A stretch of DNA of 64,000 nt from Halichondria panicea. Its lineage: Eukaryota > Porifera > Demospongiae > Suberitida > Halichondriidae. Where the stretch lies: NCBI RefSeq assembly GCF_963675165.1, contig NC_087381.1, positions 1,054,001 through 1,118,000 on the forward strand, given 5' to 3'. The notes beneath the pieces were generated by a model. That model did no database searches and was not told the DNA's origin. It was given only the letters and a program-made list of their open reading frames with translations. Numbering within the stretch: the stretch's first letter is position 1; each line of letters starts with the position of its first letter. A program made the translations under genes and the position numbers. Of this stretch, positions 434 to 63,056 are shown one piece after another.

Positions 434-1942
434 ATGAAGTACAAGTTGCGATATTTCTACTCAAAGGGAGCTTTTCTAGTCCTTGTGTGGATGATGCTTA
501 TAACATCAGCATTGACTTTCGTGTTTCGTATGTTTACCAAACCAGGAGGTATCCAATTTTATTCTCCGCACAAGGATCCAAGACTTCTTCTGATACCGGT
601 GATTGCCTTTGTTCCCATATATGGCTGGCTAGCTGATGTACGGTATGGAAACTTCAAGGTGTTTAGGTTCGGTGCATCTCTATTTTTTGTCTCAACGGTA
701 TTGACAAGTGTTTGTCTGATAATTAAAGAAGAGGGAGTTAATCCAACTGTTACTATGGTTGCTATAACTGCAGCTGTGTTAGGTGCGTATCTTGGAGTTA
801 GTGCATGCGCAGTAACAGCTCTTCAGCTAGGCTTGGATCAGATGCCAGATGCTTCGTCTGACAACATTATAAGTTTTATCAAGTGGTTCATGTTCTCAGG
901 TGTATTTGGTGTATGGATTAGTGAAATTATCCTAAGAAGTACAATATCTTGTGCTTTCGTAGATCGTGACATTAAATTTATTTTCTTTAGTCTCTACCCA
1001 GTGCTTGCTATGAGCATTTTGTGCTGTAGTATTTTTCTTTTAGTCCCAAAATGGCTAATAATTGAACCAAAATCACCTCAGTCCCTCAAAATCATCTACC
1101 AAGTTCTCAAGTTTGCAGCCCAGCACAAAGCTCCCCTCAATCGCAGTGCTCTCACATACTGGGAGGAAGACGTACCTTCAAGAATGGACCTGGGAAAATC
1201 AAGATATGGTGGACCATTCACTACAGAGCAAGTTGAAGATGTGAAAACGTTCTTTAAGGTTATTGTTATCCAAATACCACTGTTTTTTGTCTCATTATCA
1301 TCTCAGAAATTATATGTACATCTTGATCACCAACTATTGCCCTCTATCGACAAATGCACTGCTTCACTTATTAGTCTCTTCACTTATCACCCTTTTGTTT
1401 GCGTAATGTTAGTAACTCTTTTTTCAGAATTTATAGTCTATCCTCTAGTTAAAATGGAACCACCAAGTATCTTGAAACAGATTGGATTTGCTTGCTTCAT
1501 CATTGTGGTAGCAAATATAGGGATATTGAGTGCAGAAGTTGTGAGCTATTTCCATGATATTCAAATTTGGATTGATATAGCTTCTTTAATAATTGTCGGT
1601 GTTGTTAACCTTTCCTTTTTGACAAACTGTATTCTGTTATTTGCTTGTGCGCAATCTCCATATAACATGCGTGGTCTATTGGCGGGATTTGCATTATTAC
1701 TTCATGCTTCATCATTAGGCCTTGGTGAACTTTTATTCAGTATCACGGTCAAGCTTTGCAACAAATGCTACAACTATATAATATCTTCGTCAGTCATGGT
1801 AGCGATTACATTGTTTGGATTCATCCTGTACTGCCTCCTGGCTCGCTGGTACAAAAGGAGAGTTAGAGACGAAGAATACAATGCACACAGAGTGGTGGAG
1901 GAGGTTTACGATCGATACCTTTCCAACGACATGTATCACTGA
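434..1942 (+). CDS. POT/SLC15-like transporter, intact copy 1
   Basis: Single-exon gene of 502 residues, the reference copy used here. About 12 membrane helices are predicted by eye: 13-32, 51-68, 79-98, 107-131, 146-167, 183-209, then a hydrophilic loop 210-273, then 274-290, 310-338, 345-370, 379-406, 414-437 and 447-472, with a charged C-tail. Family marks are GWLADVRYGNFKVFRFG (64-80), LGLDQMPDASSDN (132-144), GGPFTTEQVEDVK (259-271) and CAQSPYNMRGLLAG (405-418), each resembling the equivalent segment of the proton-coupled oligopeptide transporter family. Helix 1 has no ExxER motif, and the helix-10 glutamate is Leu402. The start is the ATG after an A-rich leader, as in all intact copies. 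Substrate and membrane location (plasma membrane or lysosome) are unknown. The 57605-59113 copy differs at only one residue that I could find (Gln230 here, Lys there). Confidence 0.85.
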   Translation: MKYKLRYFYSKGAFLVLVWMMLITSALTFVFRMFTKPGGIQFYSPHKDPRLLLIPVIAFVPIYGWLADVRYGNFKVFRFGASLFFVSTVLTSVCLIIKEEGVNPTVTMVAITAAVLGAYLGVSACAVTALQLGLDQMPDASSDNIISFIKWFMFSGVFGVWISEIILRSTISCAFVDRDIKFIFFSLYPVLAMSILCCSIFLLVPKWLIIEPKSPQSLKIIYQVLKFAAQHKAPLNRSALTYWEEDVPSRMDLGKSRYGGPFTTEQVEDVKTFFKVIVIQIPLFFVSLSSQKLYVHLDHQLLPSIDKCTASLISLFTYHPFVCVMLVTLFSEFIVYPLVKMEPPSILKQIGFACFIIVVANIGILSAEVVSYFHDIQIWIDIASLIIVGVVNLSFLTNCILLFACAQSPYNMRGLLAGFALLLHASSLGLGELLFSITVKLCNKCYNYIISSSVMVAITLFGFILYCLLARWYKRRVRDEEYNAHRVVEEVYDRYLSNDMYH

Positions 1943-2418
1943 ACTTTAAACTCAATGCATAATAACAAATTGCAACCTAGTTCGTATGTATTGACATAGA
2001 GATGTATTAGCTTCAACTTGTCTGTTAGTAGTCACTGTGTGCATTACATTATACCCAACTTTGCCTCCGGGGCTGCAGCCTTTGATTTCGATACATTTAC
2101 AGCCAAGAACAATGTATGCATGCATGGCTTGTATATTGTTTATACTGCTAATCGTGTGCTCTAAGTTTTACAAAGGTAGGATGTTTTGACAACATCCATG
2201 GACTTGTTAATAATTATAGTCCCAGATGATAGAGCATGCACTGCAGAGATTACATAATCAGTTCTTTAAAACTTTTTACAATGTCAGCTTTATTCGATTG
2301 GCTATCACATTAATTTTATTGAAAATCAATTCTTCTCTGTCCACGTCACAGAAAGAACTTCCAGGCCGATTCTTTCTTTGACATGCATGGCTTGACTGAG
2401 GTGTGTGGTGTGGGGGGG

Positions 2419-4496: not shown

Positions 4497-6002
4497 ATGA
4501 AATACAAGCTGCGATATTTCTACTCAAAAGGAGTTTTTCTAGTTCTTGTGTGGATGATGCTTATAACATCAGCATCGAGTTTCCTTTATCGTATGTTCAC
4601 CAAATCAGGAGGTATCCAAACCTATCTCCACTACAAGGATCAGAGATTTCTACTACTACCGATTATTGCCTTCATTCCCATAGCCGGCTCGTTAGCTGAT
4701 GTACGGTATGGAAACTTCAAGGTATTCAAATTCGGTGCATTGCTATTGTTTGTCTCAACGGTATTAACATACATTTGTGTGATAATTAAAGACAAAAGAG
4801 TTCTTCCGACTGTTACTATGGTTGCTATAACTGCAGCTGTGTTAATTATGTATCTTGGAGTTAGTGCATGCATAGTAACAGCTCTTCAGCTAGGCTTGGA
4901 TCAGATGCCAGATGCTTCGTCTGACAATATTATAAGTTTTATCAAGTGGTTCATTTTCTCAAATGTATTTGGCTCATGGATTAGTGAGAGTATCTTTATA
5001 AGTACAGTACATTGTGCTTTCGTAGCTCCTGATAACATTTTTTTTAGTCTCTACCCAGTGTTTGCTACGAGTATTCTGTGCTGTAGTATTTTTCTTTTAG
5101 CCCCAAATGGCTAATAATTGAACCAAAGTCACCTCAGTCCCTCAAAATCATCTACCAAGTTCTCAAATTTGCAGCCAAGCACAAAGCTCCCCTAAATTGC
5201 AGTGCTCTCACATACTGGGAGGAATTAAGACGTACCTTTAAGAATGGACCTGGGAAAATCAAGATATGGTGGACCATTCACTACAGAGCAAGTTGAAGAT
5301 GTGAAAACGTTCTTTAAGATTATTGTTATTCAAATACCGTTGTTTTTTATCTCATTATCATCTCGGAAATTATATGTACATTTTGATCACCAACTATTGC
5401 CATCTATCGACAAATGCACTGCTTCACTTATTAGTCTTTTCATTTATCACCCTTTTGTTTGCGTAATGTTAGTAACGCTTATCTCAGAATTTATAGTCTA
5501 TCCTCTAGTTAAAATGGAACCACCAAGTATCCTGAAACAGATTGGATTTGCTTGCTTCATCATTGTGGTAACAAATATAGGAATATTGAGTGCAGAAGTT
5601 GTGAGCTATTTCCATGATATACAAATTTGGATTGAAATAGCTACTTCAATAATTGGCGGTCTTGTTTATGCGTCCTTTTTGACAAACTCAATTCTGTTGT
5701 TTGCTTGTGCACAATCTCCATATAACATGTGTGGTCTATTGGCGGGATTTGCGTTTTTACTTCGTGTAGCATCATTACTCCTTGGTGAACTTTTCTTCAG
5801 TGTCACGATCAAACTTTGCGACAAATGCTACAACTATATAATTTATTCGTCAGTCATGGTAGCAATTACTTTGTTTGGATTCATCCTGTATTGCCTCCTG
5901 GCTCGCTGGTACAAAAAGAGAGTTAGAGACGAAGAATACAATGTACACAGAGTGGTGGAGGAGGTCTATGATCGATACCTTTCCAACGACATGTATCACT
6001 GA
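4497..6002 (+). pseudogene. POT/SLC15-like transporter copy 2, frameshifted
   Basis: Starts normally and reads 205 residues, through helix 6, to FLLAPNG and a stop. One A is missing from the A4 run of ccccaaaatgg near 5105. The second half is open from 5244 to 6002 and encodes helices 7-12 and the usual YDRYLSNDMYH end. A 4-base insertion (ggaattaagacg for ggaagacg, near 5224) puts the downstream frame back in register with the first half. Between the two lesions an Arg codon of the central loop is also changed (attgcagtg for atcgcagtg). Closest relative by eye is the intact 61548 gene. It may be a pseudogene, a six-helix half protein, or homopolymer error at the first lesion; two separate indels favour a pseudogene. 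Confidence 0.75.
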
Positions 6003-6724
6003 ACAATACAACTAAGATATAATTATAACAGAGCAACCTTGTATATGTATATGAATGTGTACATAAACTTTTTTCTTCACATAATTATGATATATAGTCA
6101 TTATTAGCTTTATTTGTTTCTTAGTACGTACAGTCATGCACTCCATTTTCAATCAAGATTATTACAGCCAATCTTAATTCCCTCCTCACGGTTGTACCCT
6201 CAGGGTTTGCGGCTATAAATACCTTTAGACACAATAGTTGATAAGATCTACATGGGAAGTACATGGAAATACATGGGAAAAGTGCCTCAGAGTAGGTATA
6301 CTATGGGACTTAGTATAATTTATCTGCAAATTTACTTAGTATACCTAGTATTCCGTTGTCAAGTAATTGTATTGTAGTCAAGCGGTTTGCGCATGCATAC
6401 ATACTAGTATCTAAATGAGTTAGACACTGTTTTGAGGTGTCAATGGGATTTAGAAGCCTAAAGGCACAGATTTAGTATCCCGAGCGTACTATTATATATA
6501 TAATCTCAGGAGTGCATGAATCCTGATAATCTATATATGTATCGATCTCATCCTCCACACTGTCCAATTGTGTATATTATTATACAGATAATAGAAGCTG
6601 TGTAGTTGTGATAGCAATTCCCCCATGCATCCATACACACTTGTTTACATGGAAATAGAAAGTGATAATGTCAAAATGAGAAAGTTTAGAGTATAGCTAG
6701 CTAGATTTTACTCTTGAGAAAAAG
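6003..6724 (+). repeat. Spacer with class I upstream module
   Basis: No gene. It carries the upstream module shared with copies at 8966, 19829, 40013, 49843 and 63589: cctcctcacggttg (6180s), a pyrimidine-rich stretch, a tatacag...ataatagaagctg block near 6580, and ttgtttacatggaaatag near 6641. Confidence 0.6.
6642..6648 (+). promoter_or_regulatory. Conserved forkhead-like box upstream of the 6725-8236 gene
   Basis: TGTTTAC in cacttgtttacatggaaat, about 80 bases before the ATG. Followed by the shared gaaagtgataatgtcaaaat block. Regulatory role inferred. Confidence 0.4.
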
Positions 6725-8236
6725 ATGAAGTACAAGCTGCGATATTTCTACTCAAAAGGAGCTTTTCTAGTTCTTGTGTGGATGATGCTTATAACATCAG
6801 CATTGACTTTCCTATTTCATATGCTCAACAATTCATGGAGAATCAAACCTATCATCCCTACAGTTACGGATCAAACACTTCTTCTGATACCGATGATTGC
6901 CTTTATCCCCATAGCGGGCTGGCTAGCTGATGTACAGTATGGAAACTTCAAGGTGTTTAGGTTTGGTGCAGTACTATTATTTATCTCAGCGGTATTGACC
7001 TGCATTTGTTTGATTATTGAAGACAAAGGAGTTCATCCGACTGTTGCTATGATTGCCATAACTGCAGCTGTGTTAGTTGTGTATCTTGGAGCTAGTGCAT
7101 GCGCAGTAACAGCTCTTCAGCTAGGCTTGGATCAGATGCCAGATGCTTCGTCTGACAATATTATAAGTTTTATCAAGTGGTTGGTTTTCTCAGCTCTCTT
7201 TGGTGTATGGATTAGTGACATTATTCTAAACAGTACAGTATCTTGTGCTTTCATAGATCCTGATTATTATTTCATTTTCTTTAGTCTCTATCCAGTGCTT
7301 GCTATGAGCATTTTGTGCTGTAGTATTTTTCTTTTAGCCCCAAAATGGCTAATAATTGAACCAAATTCCCCTCAGTCCCTTAAAATCATCTACCAAGTTC
7401 TCAAGTTTGCAGCCAAGCACAAAGCTCCCCTTAATCGCAGTGCTCTCACATATTGGGAGGAAGACATACCTTCAAGAATGGACCTGGGAAAGTCAAGATA
7501 CGGTGGACCATTCACTACAGAGCAAGTTGAAGATGTGAAAACATTCTTTAAGATTATTGTTATCCAAATACCACTGTTTATTGTCTCATTGTCATCTCGG
7601 AAATTATATGTACATCTTGATCACCAACTATCGTCATCTCTCAACAAATGCACTGCTTTACTTATTAGTCTTTTCACATATCATCCTTTTGTCTGTGCAA
7701 TGTTTGTATTACTTATCTCCGAATTTGCAGTCTATCCTCTGGTTAAAATGGAACCTCCAAGTGTCCTGAAACAGATTGGATTTGCTTGCTTCATCATTGT
7801 GGTAGTAAATATAGGGATATTGAGTGCAGAAGTTGTGAGCTATTTCCATGATATACAAAAGTGGATTGAAATAGCTACTTCAATAATTGGCGGTCTCGTT
7901 TACTTGTCCTTTTTGACAAACTGTATTCTGTTGTTTGCTTGTGCACAATCTCCATATAACATGCGTGGTCTATTGGCAGGATTTGCGTTTTTACTTCATG
8001 TAGCATCATTACTCCTTGGTGAACTTTTCTTCAGTATCACGATCAAGCTTTGCGACAAATGGTATAACTATATAATATATTCGTCAGTCATGGTAGCGAT
8101 CACATTGTTTGGATTCATCCTGTACTGCCTCCTGGCTCGCTGGTACAAAAAGAGAGTTAGAGACGAGGAATACAATGCACACAGAGTGGTGGAGGAGGTC
8201 TATGATCGATACCTTTCCAACGACATGTATCACTGA
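6725..8236 (+). CDS. POT/SLC15-like transporter, intact copy 3
   Basis: 503-residue single-exon gene with the same 12-helix plan as the 434 gene. It has the second type of first loop: LNNSWRIK follows helix 1, where other copies have FTKSGGIQ. The loop after helix 2 reads GWLADVQYGNFKVFRFG. The central loop (SRMDLGKSRYGGPFTTEQVEDVK) and the helix-10 CAQSPYNMRGLLAG are unchanged. The ATG follows gagaaaaag. The helix 7-8 loop also varies (KLYVHLDHQLSSSLNKCT). No ExxER motif in helix 1 and Leu in place of the helix-10 Glu. Substrate unknown. Confidence 0.85.
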   Translation: MKYKLRYFYSKGAFLVLVWMMLITSALTFLFHMLNNSWRIKPIIPTVTDQTLLLIPMIAFIPIAGWLADVQYGNFKVFRFGAVLLFISAVLTCICLIIEDKGVHPTVAMIAITAAVLVVYLGASACAVTALQLGLDQMPDASSDNIISFIKWLVFSALFGVWISDIILNSTVSCAFIDPDYYFIFFSLYPVLAMSILCCSIFLLAPKWLIIEPNSPQSLKIIYQVLKFAAKHKAPLNRSALTYWEEDIPSRMDLGKSRYGGPFTTEQVEDVKTFFKIIVIQIPLFIVSLSSRKLYVHLDHQLSSSLNKCTALLISLFTYHPFVCAMFVLLISEFAVYPLVKMEPPSVLKQIGFACFIIVVVNIGILSAEVVSYFHDIQKWIEIATSIIGGLVYLSFLTNCILLFACAQSPYNMRGLLAGFAFLLHVASLLLGELFFSITIKLCDKWYNYIIYSSVMVAITLFGFILYCLLARWYKKRVRDEEYNAHRVVEEVYDRYLSNDMYH

Positions 8237-8660: not shown

Positions 8661-8824
8661 GTGGTTGAATAACAGAAGCTGTGTAGTTGTGATAGCTATT
8701 CCCCCATGCATCCATACATACAATTACTACTTGTTTTATACATAGAAATAGAAAGTGATAATGTCAAAATGAGAAAGTTTAGAGTATAGCTAGCTAGATC
8801 ATTAATTTTACACTTATTCAAAGA

Positions 8825-8965: not shown

Positions 8966-10435
8966 ATGAAGTACAAGCTGCAATATTTCTACTCAAAAGG
9001 AGCTCTTCTAGTTCTTGTGTGGATAATGTTTATAACATCAGCAATGAATTTCTTATTTCGTATGCTCAATAATTCATGGAAAATCAAAACCTATCATCCC
9101 TACAATGATCAAACTGATACCGATGATTGCCATTATCCCCATAGCGGGCTGGCTAGCTGATGTACGGTATGGAAACTTCAAGGTGTTTAGGTTCGGTGCA
9201 GTACTATTATTTGTCTCAGCGGTATTGACCTGCATTTGTTTTGATTATTGAAGACGAAGGAGTTCATCCGACTGTTGCTATGATTGCCATAACTTCAGCT
9301 GTGTTAGTTGTGTATCTTGGAGTTAGTGCATGCGCAGTAACAGCTCTTCAGCTAGGCCTGGACCAGATGCCAGATGCTTCGTCTGACAACATTATAAGTT
9401 TTATCGAGTGGTTCATTTTCTCAGCTATCTTTGGTGTATGGATTAGTGACATTATCCTAAACAGTACAGTATCTTGTGCTTTCGTGGATCCTGATAATGA
9501 TTTCATTTTCTTTAGTCTCTACCCAGTGTTTGCTATGAGCATTCTGTGCTGTAGTATTTTTCTTTTAGCCCCAAAATGGCTAATAATTGAACCAAAGTCA
9601 CCAAACTCCCTCAGAACCATCTACCAAGTTCTCAAGTTTGCAGCCAAGCACAAAACTCCCCTCAATCGCAGTGCTCTCACATACTGGGAGGAAGACATAC
9701 CTTCAAGAATGGACCTGGGAAAGTTGAGATACGGTGGTCCATTCACTACAGAGCAAGTTGAAGATGTGAAAAAGTTCTTCAAGATTATTGTTAACCAAAT
9801 ACCGTTGTTTTTTGTCTCCTTATGATCGGAAATTTCATGTACTTCTTGATTCCCAACGATTACCGTCTATCGACAAATGCACTGCTTCACTTATTAGTCT
9901 CACATATCACCCGTGTGTCTGTGCAATGTTAGTAACGCTTATCTCAGAATTTATAGTCTATCCTCTGGTTAAAATGGAACCACCAAGTATCCTGAAGCAG
10001 ATTGGATTTGCTTGCTTCATCATTGTGGTAGCAAATATAGGAATATTGAGTGCTGAAGTTGTGATTGAAGTAGGTAGTTCAATAATTGGCGGTCTCGTTA
10101 ATCTATCTTTTTTGTCAAACAGTATTCTGTTGTTTGCTTGTGCGCAATTTCCATATAACATGCGTGGTCTATTGGCGGGATTTGCATTATTACTTCATGC
10201 TTCATCATTACTCCTTGGTGAACTTTTCTTCCGTATCACGATGAAGTTTTGTGACAAATGCTACAACTATATAATATATTCGTCAGTCATGGTAGCGATT
10301 ACTTTGTTTGGATTCATCCTGTACTGCCTCCTGGCTCGCTGGTACAAGAGGAGAGTTAGAGACGAGGAATACAATGCACACAGAGTGGTGGAGGAGGTCT
10401 ATGATAGATACCTTTCCAACAACTTGTATCACTGA
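8966..10435 (+). pseudogene. POT/SLC15-like transporter copy 4, multiply broken
   Basis: Starts as MKYKLQYFYSKGALLVLVW with the LNNSWKIK loop type. A deletion near 9112 (catcaaacacttcttctgatacc shortened to gatcaaactgatacc) shifts the frame. The correct frame is open again at 9241-9825 (helices 3-7), then stops near 9824 (cttatgatcgg). A third frame runs 9788-10435 through the normal C-terminus (YDRYLSNNLYH). About 27 bases are missing after GILSAEVV, removing the SYFHDIQIW stretch between helices 9 and 10. Its 3' flank is the same as that of the fragment at 24997-25533. Confidence 0.8.
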
Positions 10436-11722: not shown

Positions 11723-13226
11723 TCAGTGATACATATGGTTGGAAAGGTACCAATCATAGACCTCCTCTACCACTCTGTGTGCATTGTATTCCTCGTCTCT
11801 AACTCTCCTCTTGTACCAGTGAGCCAGGAGGCAGTACAGGATGAATCCAAACAATGTAATCACTACCATGACTGAAGAATATATTATATAGTTGTAGCAT
11901 TTGTAGCCCAGCTTGACCGTGATACCAAAGAAAAGTTCACCGAGGCTTAACGATGAGCCATGAAGTAATAATGCAAATCCCGCCAATAGACCACGCATGT
12001 TATATGGAGATTGCGCACAAGCAAACAACAGAATCAAGTTTGTCAAGAAGGACAAGTAAACAAGACCGCCAATTATTGAAGTAGCTATTTCAATCCAAGC
12101 TTGTATATCATGGAAATAGCTCACAACTTCAGCACTCAATATTCCTATATTTGCTACCACAATGATGAAGCAAGCAAATCCAATCTGTTTCAGGATACTT
12201 GGTGGTTCCATTTTAACCAGAGGATAGACTATAAATTCTGAGATAATTGTTACTAGCATTGCACAAAAAAAAGGGTGATAAGTGAAGAGACTAATAAGTA
12301 AAGCAGTGCATTAATTTTGTCGACAGAGGTTAAAGGTCGGTGATTAAGATGTACGTATAATTCCCGGGATGATAATGAGACAAAAAACAATGGTATTTGG
12401 ATAATAATAATTTTGAAGAACGATTTTACATTTTCAACTTGCTCTGTAGTGAATGGACCACCGTATCTCGACTTTCCCAGGTCCATTCTTGAAGGTATGT
12501 CTTCCTCCCAGTATGTGAGAGCACTGCGATTGAGGGGAGCTTTGTGCTTGGCTGCAAACTTGAGAACTTGGTAGATGATTTTGAGGGACTGAGGTGATTT
12601 TGGTTCAATTATTAGCCATTTGGGGCTAAAAGAAAAATGCTACAGCACAAAATGGTCATAGCAAACACTGGGTAGAGACCTAAGAAAATGATATTATTGT
12701 CAGGATCTAAGAAAGCACAAGATTCTGTGCTTTTTTGAATAATCCATACACCAAACAGAGCTGAGAAAATGAACCATTTGATAAAACTTATAATGTTGTC
12801 AGACGAAGCATCTGGCATCTGATCCAAGCCTAGCTGAAGAGCTGTTACTGCGCATGCACTAGCTCCAAGATACGCAACTAGCACAGCTGCAGTTGTAGCA
12901 ACCATAGTAAGAGTTGAATCAACTCCCTCATCTTTAATTATCACACCAATGCAGGTCATTACCGCCGAAATAAAAAATAGTAGTGCACCGAACCTAAACA
13001 CCTTGAAGTTTCCATACCGTACATCAGCTAACGAGCCGGCTATGGGAGTAAAAGCAATAATCGGTAATTGAAGAAGTCTTTGATCCTTGTAGTGGAGATA
13101 GGTTTGGATACCTCCTGATTTTGTGAACATACGATAAAGGGAAGTCATTACTGATGTTATTAGCATTATCCACACAAGAACTAGAAAAGCTCCTTTTGAG
13201 TAGAAATATCGCAGCTTGTACTTCAT
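11723..13226 (-). pseudogene. POT/SLC15-like transporter copy 5, minus strand, frameshifted
   Basis: Begins on the minus strand at 13226 (MKYKLRYFYSKGAFLVLVWIM) and reads 204 residues to FLLAPNG and a stop. The cause is loss of one A from the same A4 run as in the 4497-6002 copy. Nine bases are missing in frame after GVWI (helix 5 end). The central loop is open at 12486-12253, a 5-base gain near 12310 shifts the frame again, and 12259-11723 completes helices 8-12 (YDWYLSNHMYH). Its closest relative is the minus copy at 27513-29025, which lacks the A-run lesion. Together they mark a segmental duplication. Confidence 0.8.
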
Positions 13227-42026: not shown

Positions 42027-42615
42027 GTCAGTCAGACAAAGAGCGGTGAAACGTCGAAATAGTGCAATTTTTAAAATGAAAATATTCATTCATTAAAATG
42101 TTTATGGATTATGAAATGAGAGATACAAAGAGAGAAAAGGCTAAATAAACTATCTGTTCAGCCAGTTTCTTGATGTGGCCTTTCCCTGCAGAGATAGAAC
42201 AGTTTGAACATGAGTCAAAATAATTGAAATATTGCTAAACACAGGCAAACCCACTGCCAATCCTATGTAAAACCTACTGGTTTTACTAATCTTGATCACC
42301 AACTATTGCCCTCTATCAACAAATGCACTGCTTCACTTATTAGTCTTTTCACTTATCACCCTTTTGTTTGCGTAATGTTAGTAACTCTTTTCTCAGAATT
42401 TATAATTCGTAAGAGTAGTACGAAACCAAACTAAGAAGGAGCCATTATAGTCTCGAATACCCGCCTCTACGCAAAAGGGTATATTCGAGACTAGCCATCA
42501 TCTATATGTGTCACATATATAGGTTGATTAATTATACATTTGCAGCTCTGGAGCAGCAATCCATCAATTATATCAAACACATAAACTTTATCACTCTCCT
42601 CCATGCTGTGATGAT

Positions 42616-49103: not shown

Positions 49104-49842
49104 ACAATACAACTATATAAGATATAATTATAACAGAGCAACCTAGTATACGTATATCACTTGCTGCTTCTCACAAGTCCCTGCCATTGGCACACTTTCC
49201 GCTACACTACAAGGATTTACAGAGAGGTCGCTGTCACCTATGCAAGGCAAACAAACGGAGAAGAGACACAGCATGGTTTTGTCATCAGTGCCAAAAGTGG
49301 TTCTGCCACACAGGCAATCCAACAACTGACTGTTTTATGCTATCGCACAAGAACATTAACTTTATTTTATATATAATATATGAATGTGTGCATAAACTTT
49401 TTTCTTCACATAATTATGATAGTTATTATTAGCTTTACTTGTCTTTTAGTACATACAGTCATGCACTGTGTGGTTTCATTTTCAGTCAAGATTATTACAG
49501 CCAATCTTTCCCTCCTCACGGTATGTTGCGCCCTCAGGCTTAATTTGTTTACTGCTATAAATACCTATATATAATAGTCTCAGGAGTGCAAGAATCCTGA
49601 TAATCTATGTATCGATCTCATCCTCCACACTGTCCAATTGTGTATATCATTATTAAGGATATATATATCATTGTACAGGTAGTTGAATAACAGAAGTTGT
49701 GTATAGTTGTGATAGCTATTCCCCAATGCATCCATACACACTTGTTTTATACATGGAAATAGAAAGTGATAATGTCAAAATGAGAAAGTTTAGAGTATAG
49801 CTAGCTAGATCATTAATTTTACACTTATTCAAAGAGAAAAAG
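49104..49842 (+). repeat. Spacer with piggyBac fragment and class I module
   Basis: Normal 3' flank to about 49156, then an insert carrying a piggyBac-like tail, then the flank resumes at gaatgtgtgcataaac. The class I module follows, with a cttgttttatacatgg variant of the forkhead-like box near 49741. Confidence 0.65.
49157..49360 (+). pseudogene. PiggyBac transposase C-terminal cysteine-rich fragment
   Basis: The frame reads SLPLAHFPLHYKDLQRGR then CHLCKANKRRRDTAWF and CHQCQKWFCHTG...DCFMLSH. The spacing CxxC, about 14 residues, CxxC, then C...CF...H matches the zinc-binding tail of piggyBac-type (DDE_Tnp_1_7 / PGBD) transposases. The catalytic part is absent. It interrupts the 3' flank module between cgtatat and gaatgtg, an insert of about 222 bases. 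No TTAA or TIR is evident, so it may be a captured fragment. Confidence 0.65.
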
Positions 49843-53420: not shown

Positions 53421-53441
53421 TTCAGTATTCATAACAATATT

Positions 53442-53581: not shown

Positions 53582-55081
53582 ATGAAGTACAAGCTGCGAT
53601 ATTTCTACTCAAAAGGAGCTTTTCTAGTTCTTGTGTGGATGATGCTTATAACATCAGCATTGACTTTCCTATTTCTTGTGCTCACCAAATCAGGGAGCAT
53701 TCAAACATATCCTCACTCGAAAGACCAGATATTTCTTTTATTACCGATGATTGCCTTCATTCCCATATCAGGCTGGCTAGCTGATGTTTGGTATGGAAAC
53801 TTCAAAGTGTTTAGGTTTGGTGCAGTACTATTATTTGTTTCAGCGGTATTGACCTGCATTTGTTTGATAATTAAGGAAGAGGGAGTTTATCCAACTGTGA
53901 TAAGGATCACTTCAACTGCAGCTGTATTAGTTGCATATATTGGAGTTAGTGCATGCCTAGTAACAGCTTTTCAGCTAGGCTTGGATCAGATGCCAGATGC
54001 TTCGTCTGACAACATCATAAGTTTTATCAAGTGGCTCATTGTCTCAGCTCTCTTTGGTGTATGGATTAGTGAGATTATCCTAAAAAACACAATATATTGT
54101 GCTTTCGTTGATACTGGCAATAAATACATTTTTTTCAGTCTCTACCCAGTGTTTGCTATGAGCATTCTGTGCTGTAGTATTTTTCTTTTAGCCCAAAAAT
54201 GGCTGATTATTGAGCCAAAATCACCTCAGTCCCTCAAAATCATCTACCAAATTCTCAAGTTTGCAGCCAAGCACAAAGCTCCCCTCAATCGCAGTGCTCT
54301 CACATACTGGGAAGAAGACGTACCTTCAAGAATGGACCTGGGAAAGTCGAGATACGGTGGTCCATTCACTACAGAGCAAGTTGAAGATGTGAAAACGTTC
54401 TTTAAGATTATTGTTATCCAAATACCATTGTTTTTTGTCTCATTATCATTTCATATACATCTTAATCACCAATCATCATTTCCTCTCAGCAGATGCACTT
54501 CTGTACTTATTAATATCTTTACTTATCATCCTTTTGTCTGTGCAATGTTAGTAACGCTTATCTCAGAATTTATAGTCTATCCTCTAGTTAAAATGGAACC
54601 ACCAAGTATCCTGAAACAGATTGGATTTGCTTGCTTCATCATTGTGGTAGCAAATATAGGATTGTTAAGTGCAGAAGTTGTGAGCTATTTCCATGATATA
54701 CAAATTTGGATTGAAATAGCTAGTTCAGTAATGGGCGGTCTTGTTTACTTGTCTTTCTTGACAATATTGATTCTGTTGTTTGCTTGTGCGCAATCTCCAT
54801 ATAACATGCGTGGTCTTTTGGTAGGAATCGCATTATTACTTCATGCTTCATCATTAGGCCTTGGGGGAGTTCTCTTTAACATCATGATCAACCTTTGTAA
54901 CAAATGCTACAACTATATAATATATTCGTCAGTCATGGTAGCGATTACTTTGTTTGGATTCATCCTGTACTGCCTCCTGGCTCGCTGGTACAAAAGGAGA
55001 GTTAGAGACGAGGAATACAATGCACACAGAGTGGTGGAGGAGGTCTATGATAGATACCTTTCCAACGACATGTATCACTGA
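53582..55081 (+). CDS. POT/SLC15-like transporter, intact copy 17
   Basis: 499-residue single-exon gene and the most divergent intact copy. The first loop is LTKSGSIQTYPHSKDQ; after helix 2 it reads GWLADVWYGNFKVFRFG; the helix 4 lead-in is VYPTVIRITSTAA. The helix 7-8 loop is short and different (FHIHLNHQSSFPLSRCTS). The ends of helix 11 (GLGGVLFNIMINL) match the 49843 chimera. The central GGPFTTEQVEDVK and helix-10 CAQSPYNMRGLL are kept. ExxER and the helix-10 Glu are absent as elsewhere. Class II upstream region; the 35891 fragment is its truncated paralogue. Confidence 0.85.
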   Translation: MKYKLRYFYSKGAFLVLVWMMLITSALTFLFLVLTKSGSIQTYPHSKDQIFLLLPMIAFIPISGWLADVWYGNFKVFRFGAVLLFVSAVLTCICLIIKEEGVYPTVIRITSTAAVLVAYIGVSACLVTAFQLGLDQMPDASSDNIISFIKWLIVSALFGVWISEIILKNTIYCAFVDTGNKYIFFSLYPVFAMSILCCSIFLLAQKWLIIEPKSPQSLKIIYQILKFAAKHKAPLNRSALTYWEEDVPSRMDLGKSRYGGPFTTEQVEDVKTFFKIIVIQIPLFFVSLSFHIHLNHQSSFPLSRCTSVLINIFTYHPFVCAMLVTLISEFIVYPLVKMEPPSILKQIGFACFIIVVANIGLLSAEVVSYFHDIQIWIEIASSVMGGLVYLSFLTILILLFACAQSPYNMRGLLVGIALLLHASSLGLGGVLFNIMINLCNKCYNYIIYSSVMVAITLFGFILYCLLARWYKRRVRDEEYNAHRVVEEVYDRYLSNDMYH

Positions 55082-55733
55082 ACGTTTAACTCATGACAAT
55101 GTATAATAACTTACATGTATATCTATTTTTTGTTTTTGCAACCTTTAGTGAGTGAGTATGTTTTCACATAGTATTAGCTTCTGTTAGTATAGTCACAGTG
55201 TGCATTTCCACTTCATCAAACTAACTTTGCCCTCGGGGCTGCGGCCTCAATTTCGATAATCAATACAGCCATACATTTTTAGAACCATGCATGGTTACAG
55301 GTATATAACTATTTAATTTTTGCATGCTACTATGATTTTTATCCCACTCTGTCCATGCAATCGAGCTATTGTATTTATATCATCCCATCCCCACACTCAA
55401 GAGGAACAGACCTTCCACCTGCTGGCAGAGACGCCAGAGGACATGACATACTGGGTGCATGGCCTGAGGTGTGTGGTGGACTAATTAGATATGTGGGTGT
55501 GGGGGGCGGGGTACGGGCTAGGAGGTGTTTTGAGGGGAGGTAGAAAAGCTAACTTTGCATGATGACTCGTAACTTGAATTTGGTGCATGCAATCTGAATA
55601 TGAAAAAACTCAATATTAGTAGAGTAACAAAGATGCTTTATCTTGTGCTGTGTAAATGTTAATGTATGGAATAGTGTTTGCTTGAAATAGCCTGCCCTGT
55701 TTCAGTAGGTGTGTTATCATTTACTAGCTGTGT
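55082..55733. repeat. Spacer with PH-domain fragment; copy of 33147-33800
   Basis: Near-identical by eye to 33147-33790, then joined directly inside the next transporter copy at tgtgtcatgcatttgtg, so that copy has lost its promoter and 5' end. Confidence 0.7.
55380..55469 (+). pseudogene. PH-domain exon fragment
   Basis: Reads HTQEEQTFHLLA then ETPEDMTYWVHGLR followed by gtgtgtgg; a close match to 33431-33520. Confidence 0.55.
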
Positions 55734-56968
55734 GTCATGCATTTGTGTTATAATTAAAGACAAAAGAGTTTATCCAACTGCTACTATGGTTGCTATAACT
55801 GTATAGCTGTGTTAATTATGTATCTTGGAGTTAGTGCATGCACAGTAACAGCTCTTCAACTAGGCTTGGATCAGATGCCAGATGCTTCGTCTGACAACAT
55901 TATAGTTTTATTAAGTGGTTCATTTTCTCAGGTCTATTTGGCTCATGGATTAGTGAGATTATCATACACAGTACAGTATCTTGTGCTTTCGTAGATCCTG
56001 ATAATAACATCTTTAGTCTCTACCCAGTGTTTGCTATGAGCATTCTGTGCTGTAGTATTTTTCTTTTAGCCCCAAAATGGCTAATAACTGAACCAAAGTC
56101 ACCTCAGTCCCTCAAAATCATCTACCAAGTTCTCAAGTTTGCTGCCAAGCACAAAGCTCCCCTCAATCGCAGTGCTCTCACATACTGGGAGGAAGACATA
56201 CCTTCAAGAATGGACCTGGGAAAGTCGAGATATGGTGGACCATTCACTACAGAGCAAGTTGAAGATGTGAAAACTTTCTTTAAGATTATTGTTATCCAAA
56301 TACCATTGTTCATTGTCTCATTATCACGTGGGAAATTATATGCACAACTTTATCACCAACCATCACTGTCTATTATCGAATGCACTGCTTCACTTATTAG
56401 TCTCTTCACCTATAATCCGTATGTCTGTGCAATGGTGATGACTCTTATCTCAGAATTTATAGTTCATCCTCTAGTTAAAATGGAACCTCCAAGTATCCTG
56501 AAACAGATTGGATTTGCTTGCTTCATCATTGTGGTAGCAAATATAGGGATATTAAGTGCAGAAGTTGTGAGCTATTTCCATGATATACAAATTTGGATTG
56601 AAATAGCTACTTCAATAATCGGAGGTCTTGTTTACTTGTCTTTCTTGACAAATTTGATTTTGTAGTTTGCTTGTGCGCAATCTCCGTATAACATGCGTGG
56701 TCTATTGGCGGGATTTGCATTATTACTTCATTTCTCATCATTAATCCTTGGTGATTTTTGTTTTTATATCACGATTATGCTTTGCGACAAATGCTACAAC
56801 TATATAATATATTCGTCAGTCAAGGTAGCGATTACATTGTTTGGATTCATCCTGTACTGCCTCCTGGCTTGCTGGTACAAAAGGAGAGTTAGAGACGAGG
56901 AATACAATGCACACAGAGTGGTGGAGGAGGTCTATGATCGATACCTTTCCAACGACTTGTATCACTGA
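55734..56968 (+). pseudogene. POT/SLC15-like transporter copy 18, 5'-truncated
   Basis: Homology starts in helix 3 (tgcatttgtgttataatt). It shares the +2 change ctgtatagctgtg with the 31630 copy. Helix 4 is open, then a base is lost in cattatagttttatt. Helix 6 to helix 10 is open at 56027-56665, where a ttg has become tag. 56693-56968 completes helices 11-12. Many features (YNPYVCAMVMT, VHPLVK, SSLILGDF) pair it with the intact 36659 gene. Confidence 0.8.
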
Positions 56969-57604
56969 ACAGTTAACTCCGTGCATAATTAACATTCATT
57001 ACAATTATAGAGCAACCTATAAAAATTTAATTACCTATATCGTTAGTACTACATAATTTATGTGCTCATTTTCTTCACAATAGATGTACTGTATGTCTGT
57101 CTATACACATGCATTATAAGGCATGTTTATTATCAGCACATGCAGGTGGCTCCCTCAGGCTCGATACTGCAAGTTGGGTGAATCTGTTGCTTCGGAAAGT
57201 AATAGAGTGTTCTCAGTTCTCTCCCCAACTAACAAATATTCGCAATCAATGTCATGTGTCATGATGTTCCCTCAGCTCGATAGATCTGCTCTAAATCCCT
57301 GGAACCATGGCAGCTATAATTCCCTAATACTGTTACAGTGTATATATATCATATTTATCTTCTTATATAATTTACACTGTCCATTAATTTTGAGCTTTTA
57401 TGTTTGTATCATATACATGCAGGTTAAGTGTTGTGTTGTTTGAAAAAGTTCCCCCATTTTATCACACATCATAATTATACTTGTTTACATTGAAAGTAAT
57501 GATAATACTAACTTGAGTAAACATATTTCTTGGTACAAATGTTCCAAAATTTAGAGTATAGCTATAGATTATTTAGCTCTTTTAAAACACTTCAATAAAA
57601 GAAG
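56969..57604 (+). repeat. Spacer; from 57172 a copy of 1-433
   Basis: Continues the flank of the preceding copy. 57172-57604 equals 1-433, including the tgtttac box (57482-57488). Confidence 0.75.
57482..57488 (+). promoter_or_regulatory. Conserved forkhead-like box upstream of the 57605-59113 gene
   Basis: TGTTTAC, the duplicate of 311-317. Confidence 0.4.
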
Positions 57605-59113
57605 ATGAAGTACAAGTTGCGATATTTCTACTCAAAGGGAGCTTTTCTAGTCCTTGTGTGGATGATGCTTATAACATCAGCATTGACTTTCGTGTTTCGT
57701 ATGTTTACCAAACCAGGAGGTATCCAATTTTATTCTCCGCACAAGGATCCAAGACTTCTTCTGATACCGGTGATTGCCTTTGTTCCCATATATGGCTGGC
57801 TAGCTGATGTACGGTATGGAAACTTCAAGGTGTTTAGGTTCGGTGCATCTCTATTTTTTGTCTCAACGGTATTGACAAGTGTTTGTCTGATAATTAAAGA
57901 AGAGGGAGTTAATCCAACTGTTACTATGGTTGCTATAACTGCAGCTGTGTTAGGTGCGTATCTTGGAGTTAGTGCATGCGCAGTAACAGCTCTTCAGCTA
58001 GGCTTGGATCAGATGCCAGATGCTTCGTCTGACAACATTATAAGTTTTATCAAGTGGTTCATGTTCTCAGGTGTATTTGGTGTATGGATTAGTGAAATTA
58101 TCCTAAGAAGTACAATATCTTGTGCTTTCGTAGATCGTGACATTAAATTTATTTTCTTTAGTCTCTACCCAGTGCTTGCTATGAGCATTTTGTGCTGTAG
58201 TATTTTTCTTTTAGTCCCAAAATGGCTAATAATTGAACCAAAATCACCTCAGTCCCTCAAAATCATCTACCAAGTTCTCAAGTTTGCAGCCAAGCACAAA
58301 GCTCCCCTCAATCGCAGTGCTCTCACATACTGGGAGGAAGACGTACCTTCAAGAATGGACCTGGGAAAATCAAGATATGGTGGACCATTCACTACAGAGC
58401 AAGTTGAAGATGTGAAAACGTTCTTTAAGGTTATTGTTATCCAAATACCACTGTTTTTTGTCTCATTATCATCTCAGAAATTATATGTACATCTTGATCA
58501 CCAACTATTGCCCTCTATCGACAAATGCACTGCTTCACTTATTAGTCTCTTCACTTATCACCCTTTTGTTTGCGTAATGTTAGTAACTCTTTTTTCAGAA
58601 TTTATAGTCTATCCTCTAGTTAAAATGGAACCACCAAGTATCTTGAAACAGATTGGATTTGCTTGCTTCATCATTGTGGTAGCAAATATAGGGATATTGA
58701 GTGCAGAAGTTGTGAGCTATTTCCATGATATTCAAATTTGGATTGATATAGCTTCTTTAATAATTGTCGGTGTTGTTAACCTTTCCTTTTTGACAAACTG
58801 TATTCTGTTATTTGCTTGTGCGCAATCTCCATATAACATGCGTGGTCTATTGGCGGGATTTGCATTATTACTTCATGCTTCATCATTAGGCCTTGGTGAA
58901 CTTTTATTCAGTATCACGGTCAAGCTTTGCAACAAATGCTACAACTATATAATATCTTCGTCAGTCATGGTAGCGATTACATTGTTTGGATTCATCCTGT
59001 ACTGCCTCCTGGCTCGCTGGTACAAAAGGAGAGTTAGAGACGAAGAATACAATGCACACAGAGTGGTGGAGGAGGTTTACGATCGATACCTTTCCAACGA
59101 CATGTATCACTGA
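57605..59113 (+). CDS. POT/SLC15-like transporter, intact copy 19
   Basis: 502 residues, the same protein as the 434-1942 gene except Lys at residue 230 instead of Gln, from a single c-to-a difference in the central loop (gccaagcac here). Lys is the residue found in nearly all other copies, so the 434 gene carries the derived state. Helices, motifs and missing catalytic residues are as for that gene. Confidence 0.85.
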   Translation: MKYKLRYFYSKGAFLVLVWMMLITSALTFVFRMFTKPGGIQFYSPHKDPRLLLIPVIAFVPIYGWLADVRYGNFKVFRFGASLFFVSTVLTSVCLIIKEEGVNPTVTMVAITAAVLGAYLGVSACAVTALQLGLDQMPDASSDNIISFIKWFMFSGVFGVWISEIILRSTISCAFVDRDIKFIFFSLYPVLAMSILCCSIFLLVPKWLIIEPKSPQSLKIIYQVLKFAAKHKAPLNRSALTYWEEDVPSRMDLGKSRYGGPFTTEQVEDVKTFFKVIVIQIPLFFVSLSSQKLYVHLDHQLLPSIDKCTASLISLFTYHPFVCVMLVTLFSEFIVYPLVKMEPPSILKQIGFACFIIVVANIGILSAEVVSYFHDIQIWIDIASLIIVGVVNLSFLTNCILLFACAQSPYNMRGLLAGFALLLHASSLGLGELLFSITVKLCNKCYNYIISSSVMVAITLFGFILYCLLARWYKRRVRDEEYNAHRVVEEVYDRYLSNDMYH

Positions 59114-59589
59114 ACTTTAAACTCAATGCATAATAACAAATTGCAACCTAGTTCGTATGTATTGACATAGAGATGTATTAGCTTCAACTTGTCTGTTAGT
59201 AGTCACTGTGTGCATTACATTATACCCAACTTTGCCTCCGGGGCTGCAGCCTTTGATTTCGATACATTTACAGCCAAGAACAATGTATGCATGCATGGCT
59301 TGTATATTGTTTATACTGCTAATCGTGTGCTCTAAGTTTTACAAAGGTAGGATGTTTTGACAACATCCATGGACTTGTTAATAATTATAGTCCCAGATGA
59401 TAGAGCATGCACTGCAGAGATTACATAATCAGTTCTTTAAAACTTTTTACAATGTCAGCTTTATTCGATTGGCTATCACATTAATTTTATTGAAAATCAA
59501 TTCTTCTCTGTCCACGTCACAGAAAGAACTTCCAGGCCGATTCTTTCTTTGACATGCATGGCTTGACTGAGGTGTGTGGTGTGGGGGGG

Positions 59590-60412
59590 CAGGGGCGTAG
59601 GGAGGGGCAGGGCTTTGGCGGCTGGAGCCCCCCCTTCCTCTGCAAAAACCACACTCAGAGCCCTACCTTCTCTGATGACTGTCTTCACTGAGCCCCCAGG
59701 CTGGGAATTACTGGTATAGATTAGTGGCAGACAAACAGCATGTCCAAGAGTTAGCTCTATACTATACTAGTAACTTTGACTCTTTAGTGTAACTAAGCTA
59801 GCTAGCTAGCCTTGATTCAAGGCCGATTAAAGTACATATTTTAATCAGCATGGAATCGAGGCTACTAGCTAGCTAGCTGGCTAGCTTCTTTAATTTAGCA
59901 TGCACCATTTAATTGAAGCAGGTGTGGCTATAAACTATTTCTTGCACATGTGCAATGCACTGTGCAACTGATCAATAGAGGTTGATTGAGAGCAGCAACT
60001 ATGTCGCAGAAACTGGACCATTATTTCTCAAGCGTGAGTCAAGGCCAAGATTTAGTGCCAACTTGCCAAGCTCTAGTGCCAGTTTTCCAAGCTCTAGCCT
60101 CTAGTACTGCCAGCCTGAGTACTGATGAAGAGCCAGCAAAGTAACTGATCAGCTACATTATCATATACATTGTACATATAGTTAGCACTGTAAATATTAG
60201 CATTGTTTCATGCATAATTATTAACAAGTACAACAAAATAATTATTGTAAAACATCATAAATCGTACACAACCAGACACTCCTGGTACAACAACTATTCC
60301 CGGAAAGAGTCATTAATTAGGAGGTGTGGTTTCCGGTCTCCGAAAATTTTCGGCGCTCCTTCGCACCTTTCAGCTCAGCCCCCCCTTCCTCAAATTCCTG
60401 CCTACGCCCCTG
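59590..60412. mobile_element. Non-autonomous TIR element, caggggcgtagg family, second copy
   Basis: Duplicate of 2419-3236 with the same ends, a longer following G-run, and caaggccaag in place of caattatt near 60042. Confidence 0.6.
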
Positions 60413-60901
60413 GGGGGGGGGGGGGGGCATGCATGGACTGTGGTGTGTGGATGTGGGGGTGGGTGCACAACTAGGAGGTGTGTTGGGGAAGGCAGAGGCT
60501 AACTTTGAGGACTCTTAAATTGAATTTGGTGTATGCAATCTGAAAACTCGCTATAGTGGGAGTAGCAAAGATGCTTTATCTTGTGCTGTGTACATTTTAA
60601 TGTATGGAATAGTGTTTGCTTGCAATTGAAATAGCCTGCCCTGTTTCAATAGGTGTGTTATCATTCACTAGTTGTGTGTCTTTAAATCAGCACTAACATT
60701 TTGTTCTCAAAACTTTCAGTATTTCATCAAAGAAACATTTGTTTTTCTTGACTGAATCAACTTTCAAATTGTCGATGACCTTATTCAATTAAGACATCAA
60801 TTTTGGCCGTTAACCTAATATTTAGCCATACCCACAACCCTAGTGAAACCCCTCCCCTTCTCCACATAATAGTCGATCGGGACGAAGAAGTACAATAAGT
60901 G

Positions 60902-61012
60902 TTTGCTTTCGTGGATTATGACAATAATTTCATTTTGTTTAGTCTTTACCCATATCATGCAGTACTTGCTATGAGCTGTATAGTATTTTTCTTTTAGCCC
61001 CCAAACGGCTAA
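60902..61012 (+). pseudogene. Transporter fragment (helix 5-6 region), second copy
   Basis: Duplicate of 3725-3838: tttgctttcgtggattatg... to agcccccaaacggctaa. Confidence 0.6.
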
Positions 61013-61424
61013 GTACAGTGACCGATAAGGGTCACCCGCCTGCATTCTAATTAACACACTATTACTTTTTGAAATGGCCATTTGGTTTATCACAACTGGT
61101 GTCTTAGGCTGTGCAACGACTTTCGGGGCCAAGTTTAAAATAGGACTTGCTCGTGGAGATGCATTTAATTGTGATGGTAGGCGGAGGGGGTGACCCTTCT
61201 AGCTAATCTAAGTCACCTCAGTCCCTCAAAATCAAGTGTCACAACTATATAGATAAGTATTACCAATCAGCCAATATTTCCCTCAGGGTTGTGCGCTTAA
61301 ACTCGTGCGTTTATTGCTATAAATCCATAATACTACAATGGATATATACCGGTAGTTGAAATATATATAACCAAAGCTGTGAAATTATTATATAGATAAA
61401 TTCCCCATTCATACACACAACACT

Positions 61425-61431: not shown

Positions 61432-61547
61432 TGTATGGATTTTAAATCTGGTAACTGGAGTAAACATTTTATTGGCCGGTTAAAGTTGAGAGTATAGCTA
61501 TATCAGGCTAGATCATTTAACTATGTTAAACAATCCAAGAGAAAAAG

Positions 61548-63056
61548 ATGAAGTACAAGCTGCGATATTTCTACTCAAAAGGAGCTTTTCTAGTTCTTGT
61601 GTGGATGATGCTTATAACATCAGCATTGAGTTTCCTTTATCGTATGTTCACCAAATCAGGAGGTATCCCAACCTATCTCCACTACAAGGATGAGAGATTT
61701 CTACTACTGCCGATTATTGCCTTCATTCCCATAGCCGGCTCGTTAGCTGATGTACGGTATGGAAACTTCAAGGTATTCAAATTCGGTGCACTGCTACTTC
61801 TTGTCTCAGCGGTATTAACATGCATTTGTGTGATAATTAAAGACAAAAGAGTTCATCCGACTGTTACTATGGTTGCTATAACTGTAGCTGTATTAAGTAT
61901 GTATCTTGGAGTTAGTGCATGCATAGTAACAGCTCTTCAACTAGGCTTGGATCAGATGCCAGATGCTTCGTCTGACAACGTTATAAGTTTTATCAAGTGG
62001 TTCATTTTCTCAAGTGTATTTGGCTCATGGATTAGTGAGAATATCTTTAAAATTACAGTATATTGTGCTTTCGTAGATCGTCACAATAAATTCATTTTCT
62101 TTAGTCTCTACCCAGTGCTTGCTATGAGCATTCTGTGCTGTAGTATTTTTCTTTTAGCCCCAAAATGGCTAATAATTGAACCAAAGTCACCACAGTCCCT
62201 CAAAATCATCTACCAAGTTCTCAAGTTTGCAGCCAAGCACAAAGCTCCTCTCAATCGCAGTGCTCTCACATATTGGGAGGAAGACGTACCTTCAAGAATG
62301 GACCTGGGAAAATTAAGATATGGTGGACCATTCACTACAGAGCAAGTTGAAGATGTGAAAACGTTCTTTAAGATTATTGTTATTCAAATACCACTGTTTT
62401 TTGTCTCATTATCATCTCAGAAATTATATGTACATCTTGATCACCAACTATTGCCCTCTATCGACAAATGCACTGCTTCACTTATTAGTCTCTTCACTTA
62501 TCATCCTTTTGTTTGCGTAATGTTAGTAACTCTTTTCTCAGAATTTATAGTCTATCCTCTAGTTAAAATGGAACCTCCAAGTATCCTGAAACAGATTGGA
62601 TTTGCTTGCTTCATCATTGTGGTAGCAAATATAGGAATATTGAGTGCAGAAGTTGTGAGCTATTTCCATGATATACAAATTTGGATCGAAATAGCTAGTT
62701 TAGTAATGGCCGGTCTTGTTTACTTTTCGCTCTTGACAAACTCAATTCTGTTGTTTGCTTGTGCGCAATCTCCATATAACATGCGTGGTCTATTGGCGGG
62801 ATTTGCATTTTTACTTCATGCTTCATCATTATTCCTTGGTGAAGCTTTCTTTACTATCACAGTCAAGCTTTGCGACAAATGCTACAACTATATAATTTAT
62901 TCATCAGTCATGGTAGCGATTACTTTGTTTGGATTCATCCTGTACTGCCTCCTGGCTCACTGGTACAAAAGGAGAGTTAGAGACGAAGAATACAATGCAC
63001 ACAAAGTGGTAGAGGAGGTCTATGATCGATACCTTTCCAACGACATGTATCACTGA
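61548..63056 (+). CDS. POT/SLC15-like transporter, intact copy 20
   Basis: 502-residue single-exon gene. The first half is of the SGGIPTYLHYKDE / GSLADVRYGNFKVFKFG / KDKRVHPT type and pairs with the 4497 copy. The second-half loop QKLYVHLDHQLLPSIDKCT is that of the 434 and 57605 genes, again a mosaic. Helix 11 ends SLFLGEAFFTITVK, as in the 17910 copy. The central loop has GKLRYGG for GKSRYGG, and the tail has AHKVVEEVYDRYL. Intact forkhead-like box upstream. ExxER and the helix-10 Glu are absent. Confidence 0.85.
   Translation: MKYKLRYFYSKGAFLVLVWMMLITSALSFLYRMFTKSGGIPTYLHYKDERFLLLPIIAFIPIAGSLADVRYGNFKVFKFGALLLLVSAVLTCICVIIKDKRVHPTVTMVAITVAVLSMYLGVSACIVTALQLGLDQMPDASSDNVISFIKWFIFSSVFGSWISENIFKITVYCAFVDRHNKFIFFSLYPVLAMSILCCSIFLLAPKWLIIEPKSPQSLKIIYQVLKFAAKHKAPLNRSALTYWEEDVPSRMDLGKLRYGGPFTTEQVEDVKTFFKIIVIQIPLFFVSLSSQKLYVHLDHQLLPSIDKCTASLISLFTYHPFVCVMLVTLFSEFIVYPLVKMEPPSILKQIGFACFIIVVANIGILSAEVVSYFHDIQIWIEIASLVMAGLVYFSLLTNSILLFACAQSPYNMRGLLAGFAFLLHASSLFLGEAFFTITVKLCDKCYNYIIYSSVMVAITLFGFILYCLLAHWYKRRVRDEEYNAHKVVEEVYDRYLSNDMYH

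Follow-up and report, generated by a model that had tools for sequence, protein, structure and literature searches.

We found that a 64-kb window of genomic DNA, probably from a demosponge (C5:1054001-1118000; assembly of 131.5 Mb in 39 contigs), carries an array of 21 copies of a single-exon gene related to SLC15A4 (PHT1), a member of the POT/SLC15 transporters, and that the family to which these copies belong occupies at least 154 stop-free places in the genome, lacks almost all of the mapped coupling and peptide-terminus residues and evolves under purifying selection, with its variation concentrated on the luminal side. We give a probability of about 0.5 to the reading that the window is one slice of a lineage-specific, single-exon repertoire derived from SLC15A4/PHT, the members of which would be carriers of varied small ligands, uncoupled from protons or coupled to them differently, with a constant cytosolic face. 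According to this reading, an SLC15A4/PHT-type peptide transporter would be the ancestor, and both its 12-helix MFS/POT fold and its gate motifs on the cytosolic side would have been retained. The proton-coupling and peptide-binding residues would have been lost at or before the expansion of the family, and the luminal half and parts of the pocket would then have diversified among the copies, with the cytosolic conformational machinery kept, H+-driven peptide symport lost and the pockets clade-specific.

Ancestry, fold and pocket residues

Homology of the family to SLC15A4 and other POT proteins is indicated by both sequence comparison and predicted fold. The product of the first gene in the window (434-1942, P0001) gave seven distinct matches among PDB sequences in phmmer, all of them SLC15A4 (best 2.6e-12), and a profile built from 64 family members matched SLC15A4 (1e-44), SLC15A3, plant NPF, PepT1, PepT2 and bacterial POTs. 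The AlphaFold2 model of a window protein (mean predicted local distance difference test score 79.7, predicted template modelling score 0.81) is predicted to have 12 membrane helices and a C-terminal helix of low confidence. Foldseek ranked PHT1 (8cni, E 1.5e-10) first for this model, and a second structure aligner placed PepT2, SLC15A4, PepT1 and SLC15A3 at Z 32-28, PepT2 and SLC15A4 lying at about 29-32, with other MFS proteins at Z 27.7 and lower, one further PepT2 entry at 27.1 among them. The motifs GWLAD...GNFKV and GGPFTTEQVEDVK are conserved in the family alignments, and with SLC15A4 and SLC15A3, its best sequence matches, the family has in common GGPFT-E-VEDVK before helix 7 and the predicted 12-helix fold. 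An earlier reading of the window, made from its letters alone (hereafter the sequence-only reading), had called these genes POT/SLC15-like, and this assignment stands by sequence, by family profile and by superposition of the predicted structure, whose closest neighbours are POT proteins (PHT1, PepT2). The family profile and the Foldseek ranking rule out a protein outside POT. The profile search proposed for the first gene product gave a divided result, since SLC15A4 is matched and POT ancestry follows from the family profile, but the Pfam model PTR2 (PF00854) gave no match to P0001 at E up to 10 and misses the window proteins. The same model matched 10 of the 64 family members at E 0.01 and left 54 without a match, so that the Pfam POT model overlooks most sampled members. 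Judged by its sequences, the family shares POT ancestry yet fails the POT functional signature.

This failure is seen at the residues of the binding pocket. A passage in PMC11275134 assigns R48, Y86, K172, N203, D373 and E465 of human PHT1 to the peptide termini and W332, Y335, F492 and S496 to side chains. By alignment and helix halves, these correspond here to residues 24, 57, 126, 157, 320 and 393, and to residues 284, 287, 420 and 424, respectively, while the ExxER sites are residues 20, 23 and 24 in the helix-1 alignment. For the counts we used 80 uninterrupted members chosen by hand, mostly from stop-free matches, which form a non-random sample; sequences with an open reading frame below 440 codons (L015, L029, L030, L053, L067, L068, L069), genes identical to window copies (L001, L002, L006) and genes lying in pieces (L009-L011) were omitted. 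Unlike SLC15A4 and SLC15A3, the family has no charged residue at any ExxER site (0/80), and in 74 of the 80, including the uninterrupted window copies, no D, E, K, R or H occurs throughout residues 13-30. The E465 site carries Glu in a single member (L060) and in none of the uninterrupted window copies. This site was counted gap-free from the AQSP motif across the 80 members; in the multiple alignment of the clades, helix 10 has a gap in all but the window clade, leaving residue 393 uncertain by one place in those other clades. Among 56 sequences from five clades, the K172 site never has Lys (0/56), and the R48, D373 and E465 sites are likewise without Arg, Asp/Glu and Glu, respectively; the N203 site keeps Asn in 4 of 18 copies of one clade only, C10.

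The sequence-only reading had reported no acidic residue in helix 1, which is borne out by the uncharged residues 13-30 of all seven uninterrupted window copies, and had taken Leu402 of the first gene product for the site of the lost helix-10 Glu. Leu is indeed present at 402, but the functional site is residue 393. Residue 402 aligns with E473 of human SLC15A4 (the Glu of 'GLEF'), and Glu occupies this site in 54 of the 80 members; on the alignment, Leu at 402 is a change of the window clade at another site than E465. Because the uninterrupted window copies have Glu at neither site, the conclusion that the helix-10 Glu is lost survives. The further claim that canonical coupling and peptide binding are unlikely gains from a loss wider than had been claimed, reaching the K172, R48, D373 and E465 sites, and is tempered by new ionisable residues through which protons may still be used, as discussed below.

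Relatives that keep the glutamates wholly or in part are found in the same genome. A gene at C6:2905-2911k retains EFCER, one of its exons reading GNEFCERFSYYG. A small multi-piece POT group at C17:4274-4286k and C16:2790-2793k (L029, L067, L068, L069) has partly lost the helix-1 motif (LER, LES, IEA). Helix 1 of the C17/C16 genes reads MFLERLAYY (L029), FLESFALY, FIEAFAFY, FIESFAFY or FVESFAFY; the second helix-1 Glu is kept in all five genes read, the Arg only in L029, and the helix-10 Glu in the four genes with a readable helix-10 piece (VAET, GEM or LAEI; L068 unread). A further C17 gene, L010, reads SFAEVLVAVTGLEF. These genes are split into pieces read in different frames, the break points being alike in several, and the breaks are apparently introns. 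The C17/C16 genes possibly stand midway between canonical POTs and the arrays of one-exon genes. A FastTree phylogeny of 34 sequences (helices 1-7, 285 columns) sets C17/C16, SLC15A4 and DtpA apart from the one-exon sequences with a local support of 0.88, suggesting that the loss of coupling residues likely had one origin; because the branches of this tree are long, a single origin is likely rather than proven.

Several known systems can be compared with this family. The nearest working precedent appears to be plant NPF2a (NAXT), a resemblance in kind that does not imply the same clade. According to the relevant passages of PMC6288477, NPF2a proteins likewise lack a chargeable ExxER, are often tandem and include several proteins shown to be passive nitrate/chloride carriers, but they keep the salt bridge between helices 4 and 10 in 84 of 94 cases, whereas the family here has lost the K172 and E465 sites. 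The same passages describe NPF7, a POT homologue without conserved ExxER in which this salt bridge is missing in 181 of 181, and report transport by plant NPF proteins that lack ExxER, some of them being described as proton-driven. In contrast to the more than 100 one-exon copies here, plant NPF comprises few genes per genome, for nitrate/chloride or potassium. Diversification of animal SLC15 is already in print, since a passage on Pocillopora lists SLC15 among 'coral-diversified' genes (PMC6208414); this passage is silent on lost residues, exon structure and pocket. The Ephydatia genome paper (PMC7385117) reports tandem duplication, and its main text does not contain the term 'SLC15'. A literature search that excluded most subscription papers and all preprints found no description of animal one-exon POT homologues without the coupling residues.

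Selection and the place of variation

The one-exon copies are under purifying selection. For the window clade, 20 uninterrupted members were compared in pairs, and the median ratio of nonsynonymous to synonymous substitution rates (dN/dS) is 0.35 over the 188 of 190 pairs with dS above 0.02. After removal of the near-identical W57605, L004 and L038 from the regional dN/dS and entropy sets, the 17 remaining members gave dN/dS of 0.54 (0.40-0.74) in the core luminal helix halves, 0.45 in luminal loops and 0.34 in peripheral luminal halves, against 0.25 in core cytosolic halves, 0.22 in peripheral cytosolic halves and 0.11 (0.06-0.19) in cytosolic loops and tail. The window clade shows the same order of sides in mean normalised entropy, at 0.165 in the core luminal class, 0.201 in luminal loops and 0.023 in cytosolic loops and tail, and luminal membrane halves are more variable than cytosolic ones in all five clades. 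The C-terminal motif VEE-(V/I)-(Y/F)-(D/E)-(R/K), or a near form, occurs in 71 of the 80 members, and was not seen in the C17/C16 tails that were read.

As a control we took 17 orthologues of DtpA, a bacterial POT of the same superfamily that keeps ELWER and SIGE, chosen from 81 to have a divergence similar to that of the window clade (median identity 86%). Their entropy is 0.059 in core luminal halves, 0.020 in core cytosolic halves, 0.089 and 0.080 in the peripheral helices and 0.069 in periplasmic loops, and is highest in the cytosolic loops (0.135), with helix limits set by hand from the sequence and the general POT topology (family-DtpA profile alignment of 108 columns, hydropathy scan with 10 segments). 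The idea that luminal variability above cytosolic is special by itself was rejected, as the DtpA core helices and the C17/C16 paralogues show such a tilt too. The family differs only in how its cytosolic loops compare with the pocket and, in part, in how core helices compare with peripheral ones; a frozen cytosolic face is not unique to the one-exon arrays but is more pronounced there. The idea that the hypervariable positions coincide exactly with the substrate residues of SLC15A4 was also dropped, since it holds only for residues 126, 291 and 393, and less for 157.

Several results weigh against our reading of repurposed carriers. No regional class reaches dN/dS above 1, leaving adaptive diversification of the pocket unsupported, and the pooled value for 16 chosen sites (0.50) is not adaptive either. 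Residues 23, 57, 284, 287 and 424 are invariant in the window clade though they are mapped substrate sites. The excess of core over peripheral luminal halves falls below p 0.05 in only two of the five clades (0.0045 and 0.025; 0.20, 0.058 and 0.48 in the other three), and the luminal/cytosolic ratio of the core helices is no larger in the window clade (2.57) than in DtpA (2.99). In the four Glu-keeping C17/C16 paralogues the tilt is present, though weaker, with differences of 0.406 in the core luminal class and 0.178 in first-exon cytosolic loops, the window clade giving 0.287 and 0.052 in the same comparison. dS itself is 0.145 in cytosolic loops and tail against 0.41 in luminal loops, which suggests gene conversion or uneven mutation, and gene conversion may account for part of the frozen cytosolic face. 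Finally, new ionisable residues have appeared within the membrane. Residue 424, the S496 site, is His in 17 of 17 members of the window clade and Lys or Arg in two further clades (6/6 and 6/8), so that the new charges differ in part by clade, and the window clade has acidic residues at 164 (15/17), 432 (14/17) and 368 (17/17), the first also in 15 of 18 copies of the C10 clade. Acidic residues elsewhere in the pocket, which the sequence-only reading had regarded as evidence against itself, are thus found in part (164, 432, 368), and H424, E164 and E432 may leave proton use possible.

Alternatives to the proposed reading of repurposed carriers

The strongest alternative, which we regard as possible though clearly less probable than repurposed carriers, is a repertoire of chemosensory or innate-immune transceptors, in which the luminal vestibule would bind a ligand, the cytosolic face and tail would signal, and little or no transport would occur. 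The large size of the one-exon tandem family and its many decayed copies fit this proposal, as do cytosolic loops and a tail that are the least variable parts of the protein, the reverse of DtpA, and the C-terminal motif. Human PHT1 itself recruits TASL as a receptor, according to a passage of PMC10502012. However, E465, which a passage of PMC10589346 describes as required for TASL binding, is lost in the family, so that the E465-dependent TASL adaptor mode would be unusable. Moreover, there is no known signalling partner, the cytosolic parts could have been frozen by gene conversion, and the Glu-keeping C17/C16 paralogues share the luminal tilt. A bolder form of the proposal, which we put forward only tentatively and hold to be somewhat less probable still, is that in a sponge-type lineage a lysosomal peptide transporter gave rise to a receptor superfamily of more than 100, perhaps several hundred, one-exon genes, with the outer pocket diversified and the cytosolic face and tail frozen. 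If true, such a superfamily would match, on the MFS fold, the repertoires of olfactory or immune receptors, and would do so in a neuron-less animal.

We consider it improbable that the family consists of proton-coupled carriers with a relocated proton site, in which H424, E164, E432 and E368 would take over from ExxER and the helix-10 Glu. The frequencies of ionisable residues given above are in its favour, as is the proton-driven transport described for some ExxER-less plant NPFs. No single one of these positions carries an ionisable residue across every clade listed, and the clades would therefore need different solutions. Very unlikely is a decaying graveyard of mostly functionless pseudogenes, for although breaks affect 13 of the 20 copies that lie fully within the window, seven are uninterrupted, at least 154 stop-free copies exist genome-wide, dN/dS is low overall and lowest in cytosolic loops and tail, and the upstream element GAGTATAGCTA is kept before five of the seven uninterrupted copies; wholesale pseudogenisation was rejected on the overall dN/dS and the stop-free copies. 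Ordinary proton-coupled peptide/histidine carriers, to which the closest relatives in sequence and fold would point, can hardly be upheld when, of the mapped residues for coupling and for peptide termini, only the few N203-site Asn in C10 and the single E465-site Glu are left.

The array in the window and the family in the genome

With the first gene product as query, tblastn gives matches in the window that were grouped by hand into 21 copies (Table 1), 19 on the forward and two on the reverse strand, which upholds the count given by the sequence-only reading; their match scores rule out chance open reading frames. The uninterrupted copies have 499-503 codons each in one open frame. Stops, frameshifts, truncations, an insertion or an internal duplication disrupt every other copy that does not run past the window end. 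The statement that every copy has recognisable POT landmarks was too strong, as 13 of 20 are broken and the fragments at 25097-25533 and 35891-36327 are partial. The G+C content is 37-40% per 4-kb block, with no N. The window is about one third of an array of about 174 kb (C5:975.6k-1149.9k, genome protein search).

Eight exact GAGTATAGCTA sites occur in the window, each upstream of a copy and on its strand, 36-184 bases before it, so that 8 of 21 copies carry the element, five of them uninterrupted and the other three broken or cut. Since the element is kept upstream and on the strand of the copy, we infer that these eight copies spread as DNA including upstream sequence, not as fresh cDNA copies. 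Copies 1 and 19 sit in duplicated segments of 4 kb that are 57 kb apart; their near-identity may be an assembly effect. A 65-bp tandem repeat (2.4 copies, 98%) lies directly before copy 4, at 8525-8678.

Table 1. Gene copies, upstream elements and duplicated segment in the window (positions from the first letter of the window).
Feature	Position	Strand	Remarks
Copy 1	434..1942	+	uninterrupted, 502 aa, P0001
Copy 2	4497..6002	+	full length, 4 in-frame TAA
Copy 3	6725..8236	+	uninterrupted, 503 aa
Copy 4	8966..10435	+	frameshifts
Copy 5	11723..13226	-	inverted, frameshifts
Copy 6	17910..19386	+	first part diverged, frameshift
Copy 7	19829..21322	+	first part diverged, frameshifts
Copy 8	25097..25533	+	fragment
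Copy 9	27513..29040	-	inverted, frameshift near residue 385
Copy 10	31630..33146	+	frame change near residue 113
Copy 11	35891..36327	+	5' fragment
Copy 12	36659..38164	+	uninterrupted, 501 aa
Copy 13	40020..42407	+	fragment, pieces ~1.4 kb apart
Copy 14	45043..46551	+	uninterrupted, 502 aa
Copy 15	47608..49077	+	one in-frame stop; match limited to first 490 residues
Copy 16	49843..51712	+	broken by 376-bp internal tandem duplication (50008-50766)
Copy 17	53582..55081	+	uninterrupted, 499 aa
Copy 18	55723..56968	+	5' part decayed, one in-frame stop
Copy 19	57605..59113	+	uninterrupted; protein 99.8% identical to copy 1
Copy 20	61548..63056	+	uninterrupted, 502 aa
Copy 21	63586..64000	+	extends beyond window end
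GAGTATAGCTA element, copy 1	383..393	+	
GAGTATAGCTA element, copy 3	6689..6699	+	
GAGTATAGCTA element, copy 4	8782..8792	+	
GAGTATAGCTA element, copy 12	36603..36613	+	
GAGTATAGCTA element, copy 16	49793..49803	+	
GAGTATAGCTA element, copy 19	57554..57564	+	
GAGTATAGCTA element, copy 20	61490..61500	+	
GAGTATAGCTA element, copy 21	63528..63538	+	
Segmental duplicate, recent	57172..61207	+	99.3% identical to window 1-4034

Genome protein searches with six queries, the window protein among them and the rest being further members, place the family, in full-length or nearly full-length stop-free form, at a minimum of 154 distinct places on 15 contigs. This number was hand-picked from six result tables and is a lower bound: each search named 441-708 first-look candidates, scored 71-85 of them and listed 73-92 matches, and one of the six contributed no new place. 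A few of the 154 span only the better part of the query despite a long open frame, and in some the alignment to a longer query takes in a stop just outside the start of the gene itself. The PTR2 model gave 55 matches in the genome, including arrays of single-exon genes of about 600 codons on C3, C2, C5 and C8. POT homologues of this kind form a second tier (C3:5.66-5.85M, C2:1.64M, C5:2.23-2.27M, C8:4.2M, C9, C11, C13 and C10:1.176M; e.g. L012-L019), which includes several genes still recognised by PTR2; those aligned lack ExxER, and L060 is the one that keeps the helix-10 Glu. Apart from the transporters, homeodomain matches in the genome number 23 at E up to 1e-8, and two of them, about 5 kb apart on opposite strands (C2:1301279-1306743), are possibly a linked homeobox pair. 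The number of homeodomain matches fits a demosponge, as do the 131.5 Mb of the assembly and its 17 contigs of chromosome size, 16 of which span 5.7 to 18.1 Mb.

If the reading of repurposed carriers holds, a single ancestral transporter would have expanded into a very large family of single-exon genes within a small animal genome, and the family would be a natural experiment in many copies on the POT fold without its proton-coupling residues. For the animal itself, such a repertoire would be a candidate molecular basis for the way in which a filter feeder takes up or senses small molecules from water and microbes.

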